Shown here: positions 30,635 to 36,950 of the stretch, piece after piece
Layout: each line of letters begins with the position of its first letter
How positions within the stretch are numbered: the stretch's first letter is position 1
Assembly (NCBI RefSeq): GCF_013035315.1
Contig: NZ_WQHP01000004.1
Coordinates: forward strand, 310,001 to 374,000
Direction: 5' to 3'
Source: Ruegeria arenilitoris
Lineage (GTDB): Bacteria > Pseudomonadota > Alphaproteobacteria > Rhodobacterales > Rhodobacteraceae
Length of the DNA stretch: 64,000 nt
Notes under the pieces: model-generated
Seen by the model: the letters and a program-made list of their open reading frames with translations, nothing else
What the model was told of the DNA's origin: nothing
Database searches by the model: none
Translations under genes and position numbers: made by a program

Positions 30635-31288
30635 TTATTTTCGAACGCGTGACTGACTGTTTGGCACGGGACACGGTATCGGCATGGCCTTTGGTTGCCT
30701 GTCTCGCGCCGCAAGATACGCCAACAAGAGGCATTGCGCATAGCGCGGCCCTTCAAGACCCTGAGCAAGCGCAGAAAGGATCGCTATCCCCAGGTCGCGC
30801 GCCTTGCGCAGTCGCCCAGCTTTGGACGGCGAGAAATACTCAAAATCTATCAAGCGAGTCTGCTGTCCGTCCCAGCACATATCCCTGAATGCCGGCCGAC
30901 CATGCGCCAGGTCCATCGCGTGCAAACGCGCCAGCGCCCGTCCTGCAGCGCGGCAGGCCTTGAGCTTATCGACCGTTGTGACATAGGCATCTTTGCAAAA
31001 CTTGGTCAGACTGCTTCCGGCGTCCTCAACGACGATGTAATCCGAACCCTCGGCCAGAATCCTTGGTACAGCCACACCGCGGTTCCAGAGATAGAGATGG
31101 GACTGCCGATCCCGATCAAAAGCTTGTTCAGGTTTGCCTTTGACCAGCCAGAGATGTGGCGCAAAACGCTCAACACGCTTTATCCAAAACCGGAGACCTC
31201 GCCGTGTCTGACACAGAGTCACACGTTGATGCGGGGCCTTTAAGGCCTCGTGCATCGCGACGTGTATCTCTGCTGTTTTGTCTTTCAC
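30635..31288 (-). CDS. Putative WaaP/Kdo-kinase-like protein kinase fold
   Basis: A 217-residue protein with the short kinase fold of lipopolysaccharide kinases. The lysine and nucleotide region is around VPRILAEGSDYIVVEDAG, the catalytic loop reads LAHGRPAFRDMCWD, and the metal-binding site is LIDFEYF. Possible substrates are heptose or Kdo of LPS, or a small molecule. I choose the GTG at 31288, five bases after GGAGG; an in-frame GTG at 31294 overlaps that ribosome site. Confidence 0.7.
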   Translation of the reverse strand: MKDKTAEIHVAMHEALKAPHQRVTLCQTRRGLRFWIKRVERFAPHLWLVKGKPEQAFDRDRQSHLYLWNRGVAVPRILAEGSDYIVVEDAGSSLTKFCKDAYVTTVDKLKACRAAGRALARLHAMDLAHGRPAFRDMCWDGQQTRLIDFEYFSPSKAGRLRKARDLGIAILSALAQGLEGPRYAQCLLLAYLAARDRQPKAMPIPCPVPNSQSRVRK

Positions 31289-31486
31289 GCTCACCTCCGG
31301 TAGACCTTAGGTTAGATATAGGAGTTCTGCCTGTGCGTTTCATCTTGGACGGGCGAATTATTCGCTCGACCAGCCCTGTTTCCGGCGCGGATCCGCCTTT
31401 GCCTTAAAGCCGCAATCGTATTTTTTCGACGGAATGCCGCCTGCCACCCGTTTCACTTTCAATGTTGAAACGCGAAAGGGATTTTG

Positions 31487-32374
31487 ATGACCAAAACTGT
31501 CGCCATTTGGAGCGCCGCATTCGCACTGTCGACCATAGCTGCCATCGCCACCGCGCAGCACAGATTTCGATACCATGACGAAACCGAAACTCAGCCGCTG
31601 CGCCTGCAGGCCGCAACGGTTGATCCCGGAACCAGCCTGACAGAGATTTCAGAGTCCCAAAACAGCCTGAAGGTGTCAGCCAATGGGATTCCCGATCACC
31701 TTGTCGGTCGCTTCCCCAACCGAGGCAATCCGCACGGCATCTCGCAACAAAATGTCAGCTTGAAGATACCTGCCAATCCCAAATCCGCTCGAACGGTCAC
31801 ACCGCTGGAATTGGGCTGGAACTTTGGTGTGTCTTTGAACGGAGTGGTGTTCGATCCCTTGGCCGCCGAATTCTGGCACGGTGATCCTAATTCGGGTTGG
31901 TCCTACAATGCCCTCGGGGGTGCGGTTACGTTGGGACTGGATGAGAATTTCGCCCACGTGCAGCCCAACGGTAAGTACCACTATCACGGCATACCCACCG
32001 GTTTGATCGAACTGTTGGACTATGCGCCAAACCGCCACTCCCCATTGATCGGATATGCAGCGGACGGCTTTCCGATTTATGCAATGACCGGAGTCGTGGA
32101 CGGGAATGTCCAGCAAATGACATCGTCTTACCGTCTGAAAGCGGGCAACCGACCGGGTGGCGACGAGCCGGACGGAAAGCATGACGGCACGTTCAATGAA
32201 GACTATGCCTATGTCGCAGGTTCCGGGACCCTGGATGAATGTAACGGAGCCTTTACGGTTTCCCCCGAATATCCATCTGGAACCTACGCTTACTTCCTGA
32301 CGGAAAACTATCCGGTTATTCCACGCTGTTTCGCGGGCAAGCCAGATACTAGCTTTCGGTTCGGTCGTGGCTGA
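31487..32374 (+). CDS. YHYH-motif exported protein
   Basis: A 295-residue protein with an N-terminal signal peptide (residues 1-21, ending AIATAQ). The central part has GKYHYHGIPTG followed by LIGYAADGFPIYA, the hallmark of YHYH proteins, a periplasmic family with a likely metal-binding His cluster and no settled function. EDYAYVAGSGTLDECNGAF and a C-terminal YAYFLTENYPVIPRC are also typical. The ATG at 31487 follows GAAAGGG. Confidence 0.88.
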   Translation: MTKTVAIWSAAFALSTIAAIATAQHRFRYHDETETQPLRLQAATVDPGTSLTEISESQNSLKVSANGIPDHLVGRFPNRGNPHGISQQNVSLKIPANPKSARTVTPLELGWNFGVSLNGVVFDPLAAEFWHGDPNSGWSYNALGGAVTLGLDENFAHVQPNGKYHYHGIPTGLIELLDYAPNRHSPLIGYAADGFPIYAMTGVVDGNVQQMTSSYRLKAGNRPGGDEPDGKHDGTFNEDYAYVAGSGTLDECNGAFTVSPEYPSGTYAYFLTENYPVIPRCFAGKPDTSFRFGRG

Positions 32375-32398: not shown

Positions 32399-34099
32399 TT
32401 ACCTTTCGGTGAGTTTCAGCTCGATCCGCCGGTTCTGCGCGCGGGCCTCCGGCGTGTCGGCCGGGTTGACGGGCTGGAACTCACCAAATCCATTTGCGGC
32501 CAGACGGTTTGGCGGGATGCCCAAAGCGTCGACCATATAGCGTACCACTGACAAGGCGCGCCCCTGACTCAGCTCCCAATTGTCACGATACCGACCTGAT
32601 CCGGCCAGCGGCACGTTGTCGGTATGGCCGTCGACCCGGATCACCCAGTTCAGGCCTTCGGGGATTTCAGCGGCCACACTGCGCAAGATCGCGGCAACTT
32701 TGGCCACCTCTTGCTGCCCTACCGGGGATAGGACGGCAGAGCCGGTGTCGAACAGTACCTCGGACGAGAACACGAACCGGTCGCCTTCGATGCGAACGCC
32801 CTCTTCGTTGCCCAGAACATCGCGCAAACGACCAAAGAATTCGGAACGATAGCGCTGCAGATCCTCGGCCTGGGCCGCCAGTTCCTGATTCTGACCAGAC
32901 AGGGCCTCGGCCTCAGCTTCCAGCCGGGCGCGTTCGGCCTCTTCCAGCAGACGCCGTCGACGCTCTTCCGAAGCCGCACGGGCAAGGGCTGCGTTCAGGT
33001 CCTGACCAAGGCTTTGAATACGGATATCCGCAGCTGCGTTGCGCTCTTCATAGTCATCCAGAATAGCCTGCAACCCACCAAGCTGCTGACGCAGTGCGGC
33101 CATCTGTTGATTCAGCAAGGCTGTTTCGCGCTGAGCTTTTGCCGAAATCGCCTGCTCAGCCGAGATTGCTTCGCGGGCCACGGCCAAGAGGTTGGCGCGT
33201 TCTTCCGCCAGCGAGCGTTGTGTCTGCGCTTCGGCCTGGGCTTCGGTTTGCGCGGCAAGGGCCGCCTGCAACTGCGCTTGCAGTTCGTCAGCATCCAACG
33301 CACCAAATTGGCGTTCCAATTCAGCCCGGGCGGCCTGCGCTGCCGCCAGCAGGGTCAGCGTATCTTCGGCTTCTTTACGCTGCGCCTCCAGCGCCAGGGT
33401 CATGGCAGTTAGCTCGGCGTCCGCGTCCTGCAGGCGGTTTCGCAGGTTTTCGGCGGCGGCGGCCTCGGCCAGTCTCGCGGCCTCTTCCGCGCTGAGCTGA
33501 TCTTCCAAGTCACCGATCCGGGTCGCCTGCGCCGCGTCGCTTTGTTCCAGATCAGCGACCAGGGCTTCCAATGCCTCGCGACGTGCGGCTGCCAAACGGG
33601 CCGCCTCTGCCTGTTCGTCGATCTCAGCCCGGCTTTGCGCCAGCGCCAGGTTCAGAGCCTGCCGTTCGTCCAACAGTGCTTCGCGCTGCGCCTCAAGCGT
33701 CGAGATCGCACTACGCGCGCGGTTCTGATCCGCCAGAAGCGCCGCCACCTGCGCTTCGAAATCAGTGATGCGGGCCTGTGACAGGGCCAAATCCACTTCG
33801 GCGCGCGCAAGGGTGTCCTCGGTCTGCGACAGGGTCGCGTTCAGCGCCCCAAGGCGTGCTTGCAATCGGCTGTTTTCGCGCTCTTCAAGACCCAAGGCAC
33901 CGACCAGTGCGGCAACCTCGTCCGACAGGGCTGTCAGCTCGTCTTCTTGACCGGAAATCGTCTCGCGCAGCACGAACTGAACCACCATGAAGATGGTCAG
34001 AACGAATGTCAGAACCATCAGCAACCCGGTGATCGCGTCCACAAAGCCCGGCCAGACCGAACCCTGAAAACGTTGACCTGTGCGGCGGGACAGAGCCAT
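32399..34099 (-). CDS. MotB/OmpA-like peptidoglycan-binding stator protein with long coiled coil
   Basis: A 566-residue inner-membrane protein. One transmembrane helix at about 18-45 contains WPGFVDAITGLLMVL, where the Asp sits as the proton-carrying Asp of MotB/ExbD/TolR does. Residues about 48-410 are an Ala/Glu/Gln-rich coiled coil. The last 140 residues are an OmpA-type peptidoglycan-binding domain (DGHTDNVPLAGSGRYRDNW, NRRIELKL). Three bases separate it from the upstream ExbB/MotA-like gene. The long coiled coil, far longer than in MotB, suggests reaching across the periplasm. No flagellar, Tol or TonB gene is adjacent. Confidence 0.85.
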   Translation of the reverse strand: MALSRRTGQRFQGSVWPGFVDAITGLLMVLTFVLTIFMVVQFVLRETISGQEDELTALSDEVAALVGALGLEERENSRLQARLGALNATLSQTEDTLARAEVDLALSQARITDFEAQVAALLADQNRARSAISTLEAQREALLDERQALNLALAQSRAEIDEQAEAARLAAARREALEALVADLEQSDAAQATRIGDLEDQLSAEEAARLAEAAAAENLRNRLQDADAELTAMTLALEAQRKEAEDTLTLLAAAQAARAELERQFGALDADELQAQLQAALAAQTEAQAEAQTQRSLAEERANLLAVAREAISAEQAISAKAQRETALLNQQMAALRQQLGGLQAILDDYEERNAAADIRIQSLGQDLNAALARAASEERRRRLLEEAERARLEAEAEALSGQNQELAAQAEDLQRYRSEFFGRLRDVLGNEEGVRIEGDRFVFSSEVLFDTGSAVLSPVGQQEVAKVAAILRSVAAEIPEGLNWVIRVDGHTDNVPLAGSGRYRDNWELSQGRALSVVRYMVDALGIPPNRLAANGFGEFQPVNPADTPEARAQNRRIELKLTER

Positions 34100-34102
34100 G
34101 GG

Positions 34103-35281
34103 TTACTCTCCTTCCGGAGCGGTGCGCACGGCGCCTCTGGGCAGTGTCAGGGCTTTGACCAGCAATTCGATGTCCTTGCGCAGCTCGCTCATGCTTTCCT
34201 GTCGGCCAGCAGAGATTTCTTCGAGAATGCGAAGCAGCTGAACATCCATCGAACGCAGCCGCATCCGGCTTTCGGCATCAATGCCGTCGCCTGTGCCCTG
34301 CTCACGCATGTGGTCCAGCAGCGCGTCCTGTCCAAGGGCTACCCGCTCCAGCGCAGCGGTAACGCCTTCGGTCTCGGATTGGCGCACATTCATCTCGCCA
34401 ATTGCGTCGACCAACTGACCCAATTTGACGGAAACCGTCGCGCGATCGGACTCTTGCGCGGAAAACAGATCCTGCAGGGCATCCATCTGTTCAGACATGG
34501 CATCCAGAACGGGCGTCAAAACCGCAATCTCTGCCCCGCCCTCTTCCGCGGACGCAAAGCCCACGCGCGTGATTGAGGACAACCATTCCTCAAGCTCGCG
34601 ATAGAACCGGTTTTGTCCGTGGCCCGCAAAAAGCTCTAGCAGGCCAACGATCAGAGAGCCCGCCAGCCCCAACAAAGACGACCCGAACGCCACACCCATG
34701 CCCTGCAGTTGGGACTCGAGCCCGACCATCAGGCGGTTGAACACGGCCAGCCCTTCCTCGCCCTCTTGTGGGTTCAGGCTGCGGATCGTGTCGACAATGG
34801 CCGGAACGGTTGTCGCCAGACCAAAGAACGTCCCCAAAAGACCAAGATAGATCAGGACGTTGGTGATATAGCGGGTGATCTCGCGCTCTTCCTCGACGCG
34901 CTCCGCAACCGAGTCCAGAATCGACCGGGTTGAGCTTGAGCTGATCTGCGATCTTGCCCCCCGCTCGCGCAGCAGCGATGCCAGAGGTGCCAATAGTTGC
35001 GGTGTGCGGGCGTCTTCGCGCACGACGCCACCGACAAACGCTTCGATCCAGCGGACCGAGCCAATCAGCTGTGTGACCTGATAGAAACAGGCGAACACGC
35101 CGATTATGAAAACCAGAATGATGAAGCCGTTCAGGTATGGGTTGGCCTCGAATACCGGCAACACATATGGCAGCGCCATAAAGACACCCAAGCCCGCCAA
35201 GGCAATTGCGACCAACATCATCACAATTTGACGGATGGGATGCGAGAAATGGGGTCTCGCGCCCTGATGTGCCTGCGCCAT
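34103..35281 (-). CDS. MotA/TolQ/ExbB family proton channel protein
   Basis: A 392-residue membrane protein with four predicted helices: about 18-40, 50-72, 138-165 and 198-225. The third helix region NVLIYLGLLGTFFGLATTVPAIVDTI matches the ExbB/MotA proton-channel domain. The last 150 residues are soluble, acidic and probably coiled (VLDAMSEQMDALQDLFSAQE). It forms a two-gene unit with the MotB/OmpA-like gene, so the pair should build a proton-driven stator. Its target is unknown. Confidence 0.88.
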   Translation of the reverse strand: MAQAHQGARPHFSHPIRQIVMMLVAIALAGLGVFMALPYVLPVFEANPYLNGFIILVFIIGVFACFYQVTQLIGSVRWIEAFVGGVVREDARTPQLLAPLASLLRERGARSQISSSSTRSILDSVAERVEEEREITRYITNVLIYLGLLGTFFGLATTVPAIVDTIRSLNPQEGEEGLAVFNRLMVGLESQLQGMGVAFGSSLLGLAGSLIVGLLELFAGHGQNRFYRELEEWLSSITRVGFASAEEGGAEIAVLTPVLDAMSEQMDALQDLFSAQESDRATVSVKLGQLVDAIGEMNVRQSETEGVTAALERVALGQDALLDHMREQGTGDGIDAESRMRLRSMDVQLLRILEEISAGRQESMSELRKDIELLVKALTLPRGAVRTAPEGE

Positions 35282-35350: not shown

Positions 35351-35881
35351 TTATGAGGTAATGGCACGCACCCGTTGCGCCAACCACTCAAGATCGGGAT
35401 CGCGCAAGTCAATCTCGGCCAGATGTTCCGCAGTGTTGTACAGGTATTCCGTGTTTGGTCCGCGCCCGCCAACTGCATGTGCGATGATCTGTGCCTGCTC
35501 TTCCAGCGGCATGCCCCCGCAATATTGGACGTGATCAGCATCAATCACATAAGTGACCGCATTGACGACCTCACCACTGGCCAACTGCACATCCAACATC
35601 TTCTCGACATAGGCCGACGAAATCAGCTCACGCTCGCGCAATTCGTGCAGGGTGCGGTCTTCGTGACCCGCCTCAACCGCCAGAGCCAATCCCTTGCAGT
35701 GGGCATCGACCTGCTCGTCCAGTGCCAGAACCAGACCGGGGTGATCTTCGGTCCCACGATGGTGGATCGAGCTCATGCAGAAGGACCGCGCATAGCCGTG
35801 CAACGTGGCGTGTTCGCTGCGCACTACCGGAAAGCCGGGATTCCACAACAGTGATCCATATCCGAAAACCCACATCGTCAT
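35351..35881 (-). CDS. ChaC-like gamma-glutamylcyclotransferase
   Basis: A 176-residue protein with VFGYGSLLWNPGFP at the N-terminus, the YGSL substrate-binding loop of gamma-glutamylcyclotransferases, and LALAVEAGHED nearby. ChaC enzymes release 5-oxoproline from glutathione. The ATG at 35881 gives MTMWVFGYGS; another ATG two codons on is equally possible. It is divergent from the DUF2125 gene (67 bases). Confidence 0.88.
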   Translation of the reverse strand: MTMWVFGYGSLLWNPGFPVVRSEHATLHGYARSFCMSSIHHRGTEDHPGLVLALDEQVDAHCKGLALAVEAGHEDRTLHELRERELISSAYVEKMLDVQLASGEVVNAVTYVIDADHVQYCGGMPLEEQAQIIAHAVGGRGPNTEYLYNTAEHLAEIDLRDPDLEWLAQRVRAITS

Positions 35882-35948
35882 AGCTCTGGTCCTTGCCCGT
35901 TTGGGCCTATAAACATCAAATTCAACGCGGGAAAAAGGGCCAACTGCC

Positions 35949-36950
35949 ATGCGTGGACTTATACGAGTCGTCATTTTCATAGCGGTTATCTGGAGCGCCT
36001 ATTGGTTCGTCGCCGGTTACGGGTTGCGCAATGCGATCACCACGTGGTTCGACAAACAGCAAGACGTTGGTTGGCAAGCGGACTTTTCAGATGTCTCAAC
36101 GGCTGGCTATCCCTTTCGCCATGTCACGCGCCTGAATAATCCCGCGCTGGCTGACCCGGTCAATGGTACCGCCTGGAGCGCCGATTGGATCGAATTCCAA
36201 AGCCCAGCAATTTGGCCCGGCCGACAGGTGCTTCGCTTTGCCGACACGCCCCAACGCCTGTCCTACTACGATCAGACGGCTACCATTGAGGCCAGCGACC
36301 TGCAGGCAGAACTACAGCTACAGCCGGGCGTGGCGTTGGTGCTGGAAAAGATGGCGTTGACCGCCGGGCCATGGTCGATCACCGATGAGGCCGAGCCTCA
36401 GGCCGGGGGCGACACACTGGCGTTGGTGATGGAACAGACCCCAATCCCGGTGGCCTATTCCGTAAAGGCCAGGATTGACGGCTTTACCCCCGGCGACGAC
36501 CTGCGCACGTTGATGCGGTCGGCGACCACTCTGCCACAGGCTTTCGAAACGCTTGAGCTGGATATGGTAGCGACGTTCAACAAGCCCTGGGACCGCTCGG
36601 CCTTGGAGCAGAGCAGGCCGCAGCCGGTCAAGATCGACCTGAAACTGGCCGAGATGAAATGGGGTGCTTTGCGTCTGTTCGCGGCGGGCGAGCTGGATGT
36701 CGACCATCAGGGTATTCCAACCGGAGAGATCGCAATCAAAGCCGAAAACTGGCGCGACATGATCGCCATGGCCAATGCAGCGGGCGCCCTGCCCGATCAG
36801 GCTGTTGACCCTGTCACGCGCGCGCTGAACTTCATGGCCGGGCTGGGCGGCAATCCAAATGCGCTGGACCTGCAACTGAACTTTCGGGATGGGTTCGTCG
36901 CGTTGGGTCCGCTGCCTTTAGGGCCCGCACCACGCCTGATCCTGCGTTAA
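35949..36950 (+). CDS. DUF2125 family membrane-anchored protein
   Basis: A 333-residue protein with a single N-terminal helix (residues 4-22) and a periplasmic beta-rich body, matching DUF2125 of alphaproteobacteria. DVSTAGYPFRHVTRL and DGFVALGPLPLGPAP are recognisable conserved ends. Function unknown; its shape recalls lipid- or envelope-associated proteins. An AAGGGCC ribosome site precedes the ATG. Its stop overlaps the convergent extensin-like gene by four bases. Confidence 0.82.
   Translation: MRGLIRVVIFIAVIWSAYWFVAGYGLRNAITTWFDKQQDVGWQADFSDVSTAGYPFRHVTRLNNPALADPVNGTAWSADWIEFQSPAIWPGRQVLRFADTPQRLSYYDQTATIEASDLQAELQLQPGVALVLEKMALTAGPWSITDEAEPQAGGDTLALVMEQTPIPVAYSVKARIDGFTPGDDLRTLMRSATTLPQAFETLELDMVATFNKPWDRSALEQSRPQPVKIDLKLAEMKWGALRLFAAGELDVDHQGIPTGEIAIKAENWRDMIAMANAAGALPDQAVDPVTRALNFMAGLGGNPNALDLQLNFRDGFVALGPLPLGPAPRLILR

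Follow-up and report, generated by a model that had tools for sequence, protein, structure and literature searches.

A conserved alphaproteobacterial gene pair resembling ion-driven envelope motors, with a partner coil that varies in length by heptads

We analysed a 64,000-nucleotide stretch of the Ruegeria arenilitoris genome (assembly GCF_013035315.1, contig NZ_WQHP01000004.1, positions 310,001 to 374,000; hereafter the window) and, within it, a gene pair encoding a putative membrane channel and a long partner with a predicted peptidoglycan-binding end. The open reading frame (ORF) listing confirmed the two as adjacent ORFs on the minus strand. The pair is no local oddity but a conserved core gene pair through much of the class Alphaproteobacteria. 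It represents an unexplained, widely conserved machine made of known parts, and it shows one new structural regularity: four of the five varying intervals of the partner change almost only by whole heptads. We give roughly even odds (about 0.5) to reading the pair as an envelope motor of the 5:2 type, a housekeeping component inherited vertically in Alphaproteobacteria and acting on peptidoglycan in growth or division. An earlier note, made from the sequence alone, had described a two-gene, non-flagellar stator, and most of that description was borne out.

Results

Distribution and gene order

Among 61 genomes of its family, Rhodobacteraceae, 59 gave a channel match (one of the two without a match is only 82% complete), as did 164 of 241 genomes of the class, representing 129 of 191 genera, and 88 of 299 genomes of the phylum sample. 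Fourteen matching genomes lie outside the class. Five of these matches are strong (f167 three times, f179 and f188), and the weak ones fall in long ZorA-like frames (five) or in short frames like those of the 'Mid' group described below (four). The strong pair members at L215-L217, outside the class, have other neighbours, and so do the pair members at L214 in a 0.9-Mb alphaproteobacterial genome, where two stops were counted in the match.

In Rhodobacteraceae, neighbours were counted in 65 of 80 loci, the 15 loci without full flanks being excluded. All 65 contain both genes and a ChaC gene directly upstream of the channel gene on the same strand, within 400 bp in 63 cases; ClpA is present in 58 and DUF2125 in 57. 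The transcription unit may begin with the ChaC-like gene in this family. The partner gene starts 3 bp past the channel gene in the window. With start codons chosen by script, 53 of 77 loci share this gap, which overall varies from -1 to 33 bp.

We also inspected 37 hand-picked loci from other families of the class. Genes were named by eye, and because five stretches are short contig ends, the neighbour counts are lower bounds. The partner adjoins the channel in at least 36 of these loci, which hold suhB (at least 32), efp (28), an ABC transporter (25), rpmE (22) and thiE (19). The typical order is thiE-efp-suhB-c5-channel-partner-<ABC-rpmE, with c5 a third gene treated below. In Sinorhizobium meliloti it reads thiE-sel1-suhB-channel-partner-<ABC-rpmE, and the pair is annotated there as 'MotA/TolQ/ExbB proton channel family protein' and 'peptidoglycan -binding protein'.

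No channel match was found in 50,697 phage records. Among 72,556 plasmid records there were three, all on replicons of more than 3.5 Mb. The 3.7-Mb record L288 (CP090106.1) is filed as plasmid pSymB of S. meliloti Ak57. It contains rpmE, purE and a thiamine phosphate synthase gene, and has the appearance of a mislabelled chromosome. The wide distribution, the housekeeping synteny and the near-absence from phages and plasmids make the pair unlike a mobile defence system.

Fold and kinship of the channel

The channel matched Pfam MotA_ExbB with 15.4 bits, below the cut-off of 22.9, and received no NCBIfam or Pfam assignment above a curated cut-off. An AlphaFold model was calculated from an alignment of 55 Rhodobacteraceae sequences, with a mean predicted local distance difference test (pLDDT) score of 69 and a predicted template modelling (pTM) score of 0.51. 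Foldseek returned no match at E <= 0.001 for this model; the best had an E of 2.3e-3, and the 50 rows shown were all TolQ, ExbB and ZorA chains. A second structure aligner (VIA) gave Z values of 11.7 for TolQ, 11.2 for ExbB, 10.1 for ZorA and 9.2 or less for MotA, the last matching over approximately residues 14-247, and 28 of its top 29 rows were motor proteins. Since Z values below about 13 are common among helical bundles, these matches are supportive only. They favour the A-subunit fold of 5:2 ion-driven motors as the predicted fold of the channel, in line with the ExbB/MotA core that the earlier note had proposed.

The profile of 38 class-wide channels, window included, matched ZorA with 98.6% probability (E 6.6e-16, 74 columns). 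A comparison of the same type gave 97.8% over 255 columns for the 'Mid' group, and the values for TolQ, PomA-type proteins, ExbB and MotA were 56%, 51%, 28% and 21%, respectively. In the channel tree (60 rows, 223 columns), the channels, ZorA and Mid were separated from TolQ, ExbB, MotA and PomA with a support of 100/95, and the channels grouped with ZorA at 100/98. The bootstrap had not settled, and whether ZorA falls inside or beside the channels was left unsettled (ZorA stem 2.7). The tree took 60 of 91 rows (TolQ 11 of 27, channels 23 of 38), with ZorA cut to 330 residues and three PF01618 loci (L229, L241 and L249) removed by hand from the TolQ set. ZorA was represented by only five rows, which the channel profile itself had retrieved; this introduces a bias, and the two that were scanned are type III. 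The PADLOC ZorA1 match of the window channel, with 35.7 bits over part of the protein, is independent of this bias. The two true ZorA3 proteins reached 895 and 1509 bits in PADLOC.

Gene order and sequence assign the three PF01618 hits in the own genome to a TolQ-TolR-TolA locus and to two ExbB-ExbD-ExbD-TonB loci. With these loci elsewhere, and with the tree, the channel is neither TolQ, ExbB nor MotA. The earlier note had considered the opposite outcome, a channel inside TolQ or MotA with such loci absent elsewhere; the tree excludes both placements, and a TolQ-TolR-TolA locus exists. Its description of the pair as non-flagellar agrees with the exclusion of MotA and with loci that are not flagellar.

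On the curated ZorA_4 model (NCBIfam, cut-off 500), the channel scored 18.3 bits, and as to Zorya effectors, none of the five window neighbours scanned matched any PADLOC model. Judged from these sequence comparisons, the channel groups phylogenetically with ZorA, yet the pair does not qualify as Zorya, which matches the earlier observation of a likeness to ZorA-ZorB without ZorC/D/E. A reduced Zorya system, whose ZorAB-like proteins detect phage damage to the wall by themselves or together with remote effectors, would account for ZorA being the nearest characterised relative. It would also account for the tail and the peptidoglycan-binding domain, which recall ZorAB; passages of the ZorAB structure paper (PMC11890865) report that both, the ZorA tail included, are required for defence. 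The pair is, however, widespread and syntenic rather than sporadic, and the ZorA_4 score, the effector-free neighbours and the phage and plasmid searches all speak against phage defence, which we regard as most improbable.

Outside the class, the 'Mid' group comprises ZorA-like channels of 333-345 aa (L219:2021-3807, L274 and L275) and represents a further uncharacterised motor family. By eye, the Mid channel at L219 adjoins a 263-aa OmpA-type, partner-like ORF and a gpmI-like ORF.

The channel tail

Beyond its core, the channel carries a 148-residue tail, mostly helical in the model, in which D and E (29) outnumber K and R (15); the earlier estimate of an acidic tail of about 150 residues was accurate. 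In the tail, a linker of variable length leads to a nearly invariant motif, DAESRMRLRS.D.Q..R..EE...GRQ. Alignments of 14 and 55 sequences show most of this motif to be invariant, and a looser form is present in 29 of the 38 class-wide channels, the window channel being included in each case. The nine channels without it measure 295-384 aa.

The partner protein

The partner reached 814 bits on NCBIfam NF006542 (cut-off 388) and also passed NF006543; a relative from the class passes NF006543, NF006544 and NF006545. Half of the pair is thus already named as a family, PRK09039, although the name carries no function. The partner has one transmembrane (TM) helix, which carries a conserved Asp at residue 21. 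This Asp is invariant in 30 aligned partners and present in 37 of 37 class-wide partners, in 33 by pattern and in four by eye as WPGWVDA. The coil that follows, 386 residues in length, is proline-free and helical in the model, which was built from 30 sequences (mean pLDDT 72, pTM 0.30). The model has helices at residues 16-189, 202-264 and 270-429, whose relative placing is unreliable, and then an OmpA-like part. The OmpA-domain signatures are well kept in the 37 class-wide partners (HTD-type in 36, N..L..RA in 34 and NRR in 37); all of these alignments include the window. The membrane Asp, the long coiled coil and the peptidoglycan-binding end of the earlier description were all recovered, the last as an OmpA domain of 68.3 bits.

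Heptad steps in the partner coil

We located conserved blocks (A1 to A6) by approximate matching in 76 Rhodobacteraceae partners of 526-1157 aa and measured the spacing between them. From the 80 named loci we had obtained 79 channels, all but that of L116, and 77 partners; L116 was again left aside, and the partner anchor was not matched in L073 and L074. One 206-aa partner on a short contig end was also omitted; n differs by interval. The nine values of the A1-A2 spacing, which run from 100 to 170, all leave a remainder of 2 when divided by 7 (n = 58). For A2-A3, nine of ten values equal 5 modulo 7, covering 68 of 71 sequences. The A5-A6 spacing is 37, 44, 51 or 58 (n = 67), the TM-A1 spacing is 35 and once 49 (n = 59), and A4-A5 is constant at 42 (n = 64). 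The A3-A4 interval differs: it ranges from 67 to 632 residues (n = 67) with 42 distinct values over all seven classes, not in whole heptads, and 34 of these values fall in classes 0, 4 and 1. We interpret this pattern as heptads plus stutters of 4.

Distinct values were counted because the relatives are not independent. Under uniformity, the chance of nine distinct values in one class is 1.7e-7. In the control, the linker of the channel tail in 79 relatives, 14 values were distributed exactly two per class modulo 7. A hydrophobic periodicity peak near 3.5 residues, above the 95% level of shuffles, was present in the three partners analysed (L054, near-identical to that of the window, L113 and L059).

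From the TM helix to A6, the membrane-to-OmpA stretch spans 363-994 residues (n = 70), equivalent to 54-148 nm as a straight helix. The usual distance from the inner membrane to the wall is shorter. Class-wide partners measure 302-587 aa. With the register kept and the length almost free, the partner is best described as a continuous coiled coil that would lie along the wall or be folded back.

A search with Tandem Repeats Finder (TRF) detected no period-21 tandem repeats in the genes of the window and one 21-bp unit, in 1.9 copies, in the longest relative. On these results, we rejected the idea that the coil grew through tandem DNA repeats alone. Past slippage by 21 bp at a time may have contributed length changes, an effect not separated from selection.

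The coil also bears on a mechanosensor or tether, in which it would report the distance or tension between wall and membrane, and ion flow or the tail would signal inward. Such a role would suit a coil that far exceeds the distance from inner membrane to wall and is free to lengthen by heptads, and the tail end is strongly conserved in Rhodobacteraceae. Similarly, passages of the ZorAB structure paper suggest a response to wall displacement or damage (PMC11890865). The membrane Asp, however, is invariant, as expected if ion flow matters, although a gated channel would need it too, and no signalling gene is evident beside the pair. We consider the mechanosensor unlikely.

A third gene, c5, outside Rhodobacteraceae

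Directly upstream of the channel, 25 of the 37 class loci carry c5 as defined by clustering, or 27 with two additions that were both also found by the c5 profile. By eye, the N-terminus of its product is signal-like; a low-complexity linker connects it to an OmpA fold, which scored 37-57 bits with Pfam OmpA in four of four proteins tested. The GHTD-like stretch is swapped for AYA-type letters, which makes peptidoglycan binding by c5 doubtful. At L151:4460-6988, c5 reaches 843 aa, most of it an Ala/Pro-rich linker ahead of the OmpA fold. In Rhodobacteraceae, c5 was not recognisable: the best score was 25.7 bits in the own genome and no more than 39.1 in 41 genomes. Nine held-out c5 proteins scored 37-130 bits, and the range of 37-39 bits overlaps one of them, L161. 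As an obligatory third part, c5 was therefore rejected for Rhodobacteraceae, where no convincing match exists. These data bear on a Tol- or Ton-like energiser, which would transmit force to a partner in the outer membrane and move lipids or a substrate; outside Rhodobacteraceae, this partner would be the adjacent OmpA-like protein. The position of c5 upstream of the channel fits this idea. Its apparent absence from Rhodobacteraceae means that c5 is not obligatory, unless it has diverged too far to be seen, and we think an energiser of this kind quite unlikely.

Features and neighbours in the window

The features of the pair are compiled in Table 1. Between ClpA and the pair, at 30635-32374, the window holds a gene for a YHYH-domain protein and a small APH/Bud32-like ORF; matches to these occurred within the flanks of only three and two of the 65 related loci, respectively.

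Table 1. Window coordinates of the gene pair, its parts and the upstream gene
Feature	Position	Strand	Basis
Channel gene, 392 aa; putative A subunit of a 5:2-type motor, ZorA-like clade	34103..35281	minus	ORF; fold matches, tree, profile comparison
Channel tail, residues 245-392; acidic, helical, predicted cytoplasmic	34106..34549	minus	charge count, model helices, variable linker length; membrane side from family fold
Tail-end motif, channel residues 335-361, DAESRMRLRS...GRQ	34199..34279	minus	alignments
Partner gene, 566 aa	32399..34099	minus	NCBIfam NF006542 (PRK09039.1-1, 'peptidoglycan -binding protein')
Membrane Asp codon, partner residue 21, WPGFVDA	34037..34039	minus	alignments
Coiled coil, partner residues 45-430	32810..33967	minus	model, heptad spacing; length changes in heptads between relatives
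OmpA/MotB-type peptidoglycan-binding domain, partner residues 449-557	32429..32755	minus	Pfam OmpA, 68.3 bits
ChaC-like gamma-glutamylcyclotransferase	35351..35980	minus	Pfam ChaC, 148.7 bits; 69 bp upstream of channel

Discussion

Comparison with known systems

The pair shares with ZorA-ZorB the nearest characterised channel family, a partner with a membrane Asp and a C-terminal peptidoglycan-binding domain, and a helical cytoplasmic tail. It differs in the length of this tail, about 148 residues, whereas the two true ZorA3 proteins measure 789 and 958 aa in all, and in the giant coiled coil of the partner, the lack of adjacent effector genes and the wide syntenic inheritance. TolQ-TolR-TolA and ExbB-ExbD have a similar channel fold, but their loci are separate in the genome, their channels fall on the other side of the tree, and their small B subunits are of another type. 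In flagellar stators, MotB is the B subunit that carries the Asp and the OmpA domain. The pair resembles MotA-MotB in fold and in having such a B subunit; its channel, in contrast, forms a separate clade and has no flagellar context. PRK09039 (NF006542 to NF006546) covers the partner and not the channel. The earlier suggestion of an uncharacterised machine holds only in part: the partner belongs to a named family and a probable ortholog pair has been overexpressed in Komagataeibacter (PMC6570709).

Functional leads

Passages of that study (PMC6570709) describe the overexpression of 'motA' (348 aa) and 'motB' (321 aa) in aflagellate Komagataeibacter hansenii. The overexpressing cells measured 1.33-6.13 and 1.56-5.12 um, compared with 1.00-3.15 um, and formed chains with septum-like regions, and the colonies spread threefold faster (PMC6570709). 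Compared by description, the two systems share an adjacent gene pair, a channel with four TM helices, an OmpA-type partner and an aflagellate alphaproteobacterial host, and the K. hansenii proteins resemble in size short members of the class such as those at L153 (345 and 339 aa). They are probably orthologs of the pair. A second paper (PMC6315621) reportedly also used motA.

In S. meliloti, the pair comprises the second and third genes after the sel1-repeat gene. According to passages of PMC7327166, RgsF (SMc03995) of this species is a periplasmic protein with tetratricopeptide and Sel1 repeats that is required for polar growth; the gene could not be deleted, and depletion led to shorter, rounded cells. 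We infer that the sel1 neighbour is rgsF. Relatives of the sel1 protein were found in 11 of 50 loci (the window being a miss), in nine of them on the strand of the channel. The main text of the Rhodobacter sphaeroides CenKR paper makes no mention of ExbB, MotA, OmpA or ChaC.

The name MotA/MotB in K. hansenii and some relatives raises the question of an alternative or surface-motility stator powering flagella or spreading. The faster spreading of the aflagellate overexpression strains (PMC6570709) and the match of the channel fold to MotA agree with this. Against it, tree and profile comparison exclude MotA, and the loci seen are not flagellar. Moreover, the own genome keeps the pair although it has no MotA among its PF01618 hits and gave no FliF match, the latter searched with the FliF of a relative and no positive control, and the pair is present in genomes whose single PF01618 hit is another gene (e.g., G116 and G121). 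We judge a motility stator to be very unlikely.

In the own genome, one FliG_C gene (L212:14370-15461, C22) and one flagellin gene (L253:4899-6116, C20) lie in separate places and represent either flagellar remnants or an unusual set. The FliG_C gene was dropped as a candidate rotor for the pair on account of its neighbourhood and of the lack of a recognisable fliG beside fliF in one relative (names by eye). It is more probably a relic, the fliG normally found in the family.

A proposed housekeeping envelope motor

We placed growth or division first because of the K. hansenii and S. meliloti leads and the peptidoglycan-binding end, which are leads and not proof. In the housekeeping motor that we favour, five channel subunits probably ring a partner dimer in the inner membrane, and protons passing the Asp of the partner would turn the channel ring. 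We infer the 5:2 stoichiometry, the proton coupling, the peptidoglycan binding and a parallel arrangement of the dimer. The partner would not be a short rod spanning the periplasm; its coil would follow the wall or double back on itself, and the OmpA end would grip peptidoglycan. Our conjecture is that the motor acts alongside Tol-Pal on the envelope of growing or dividing cells, and that the conserved end motif lets the cytoplasmic tail of the ring hand torque or a signal on to the cell interior.

Several points weigh against this proposal. The pair cannot be a universal requirement, since matches were missing from 77 of 241 sampled genomes of the class. MotA was outranked in the fold comparison by a designed three-helix bundle (Z 9.5), and a sequence search of the Protein Data Bank with the channel profile returned no motor protein but chance-level matches, mostly coiled coils. 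The absence of the tail motif from nine of 38 channels weakens the tail as a common output. Neighbours such as efp, suhB and thiE point to an old chromosomal order rather than to a shared function, and the identity of the sel1 neighbour with rgsF is assumed. The K. hansenii overexpression provides the only functional data found; our searches of open-licence papers yielded no deletion study or phenotype of the pair. The link to K. hansenii rests on description, and overexpression of one subunit can mislead. Passages of PMC6570709 also state that the same genes had no effect on the morphology of Escherichia coli, and the authors read motility as well.

Speculatively, the ancestor shared with the Zorya motor could itself have been a housekeeping, wall-bound motor, which alphaproteobacteria retained alongside Tol and Ton as their third energised machine of the envelope. 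The peptidoglycan arm in Rhodobacteraceae could then be a heptad-adjustable lever of 50-150 nm that reaches the wall far from the motor. We offer this extension tentatively and think it unlikely.

About two thirds of the sampled alphaproteobacteria carry this apparent energised envelope motor. The heptad rule constrains the build of the partner to a continuous coiled-coil register, with the length nearly free, and is of use in telling 'ruler' models apart from those of a 'lever' or 'tether'. With the pair, Zorya gains a housekeeping relative, which makes the question of the origin of the defence motor testable.

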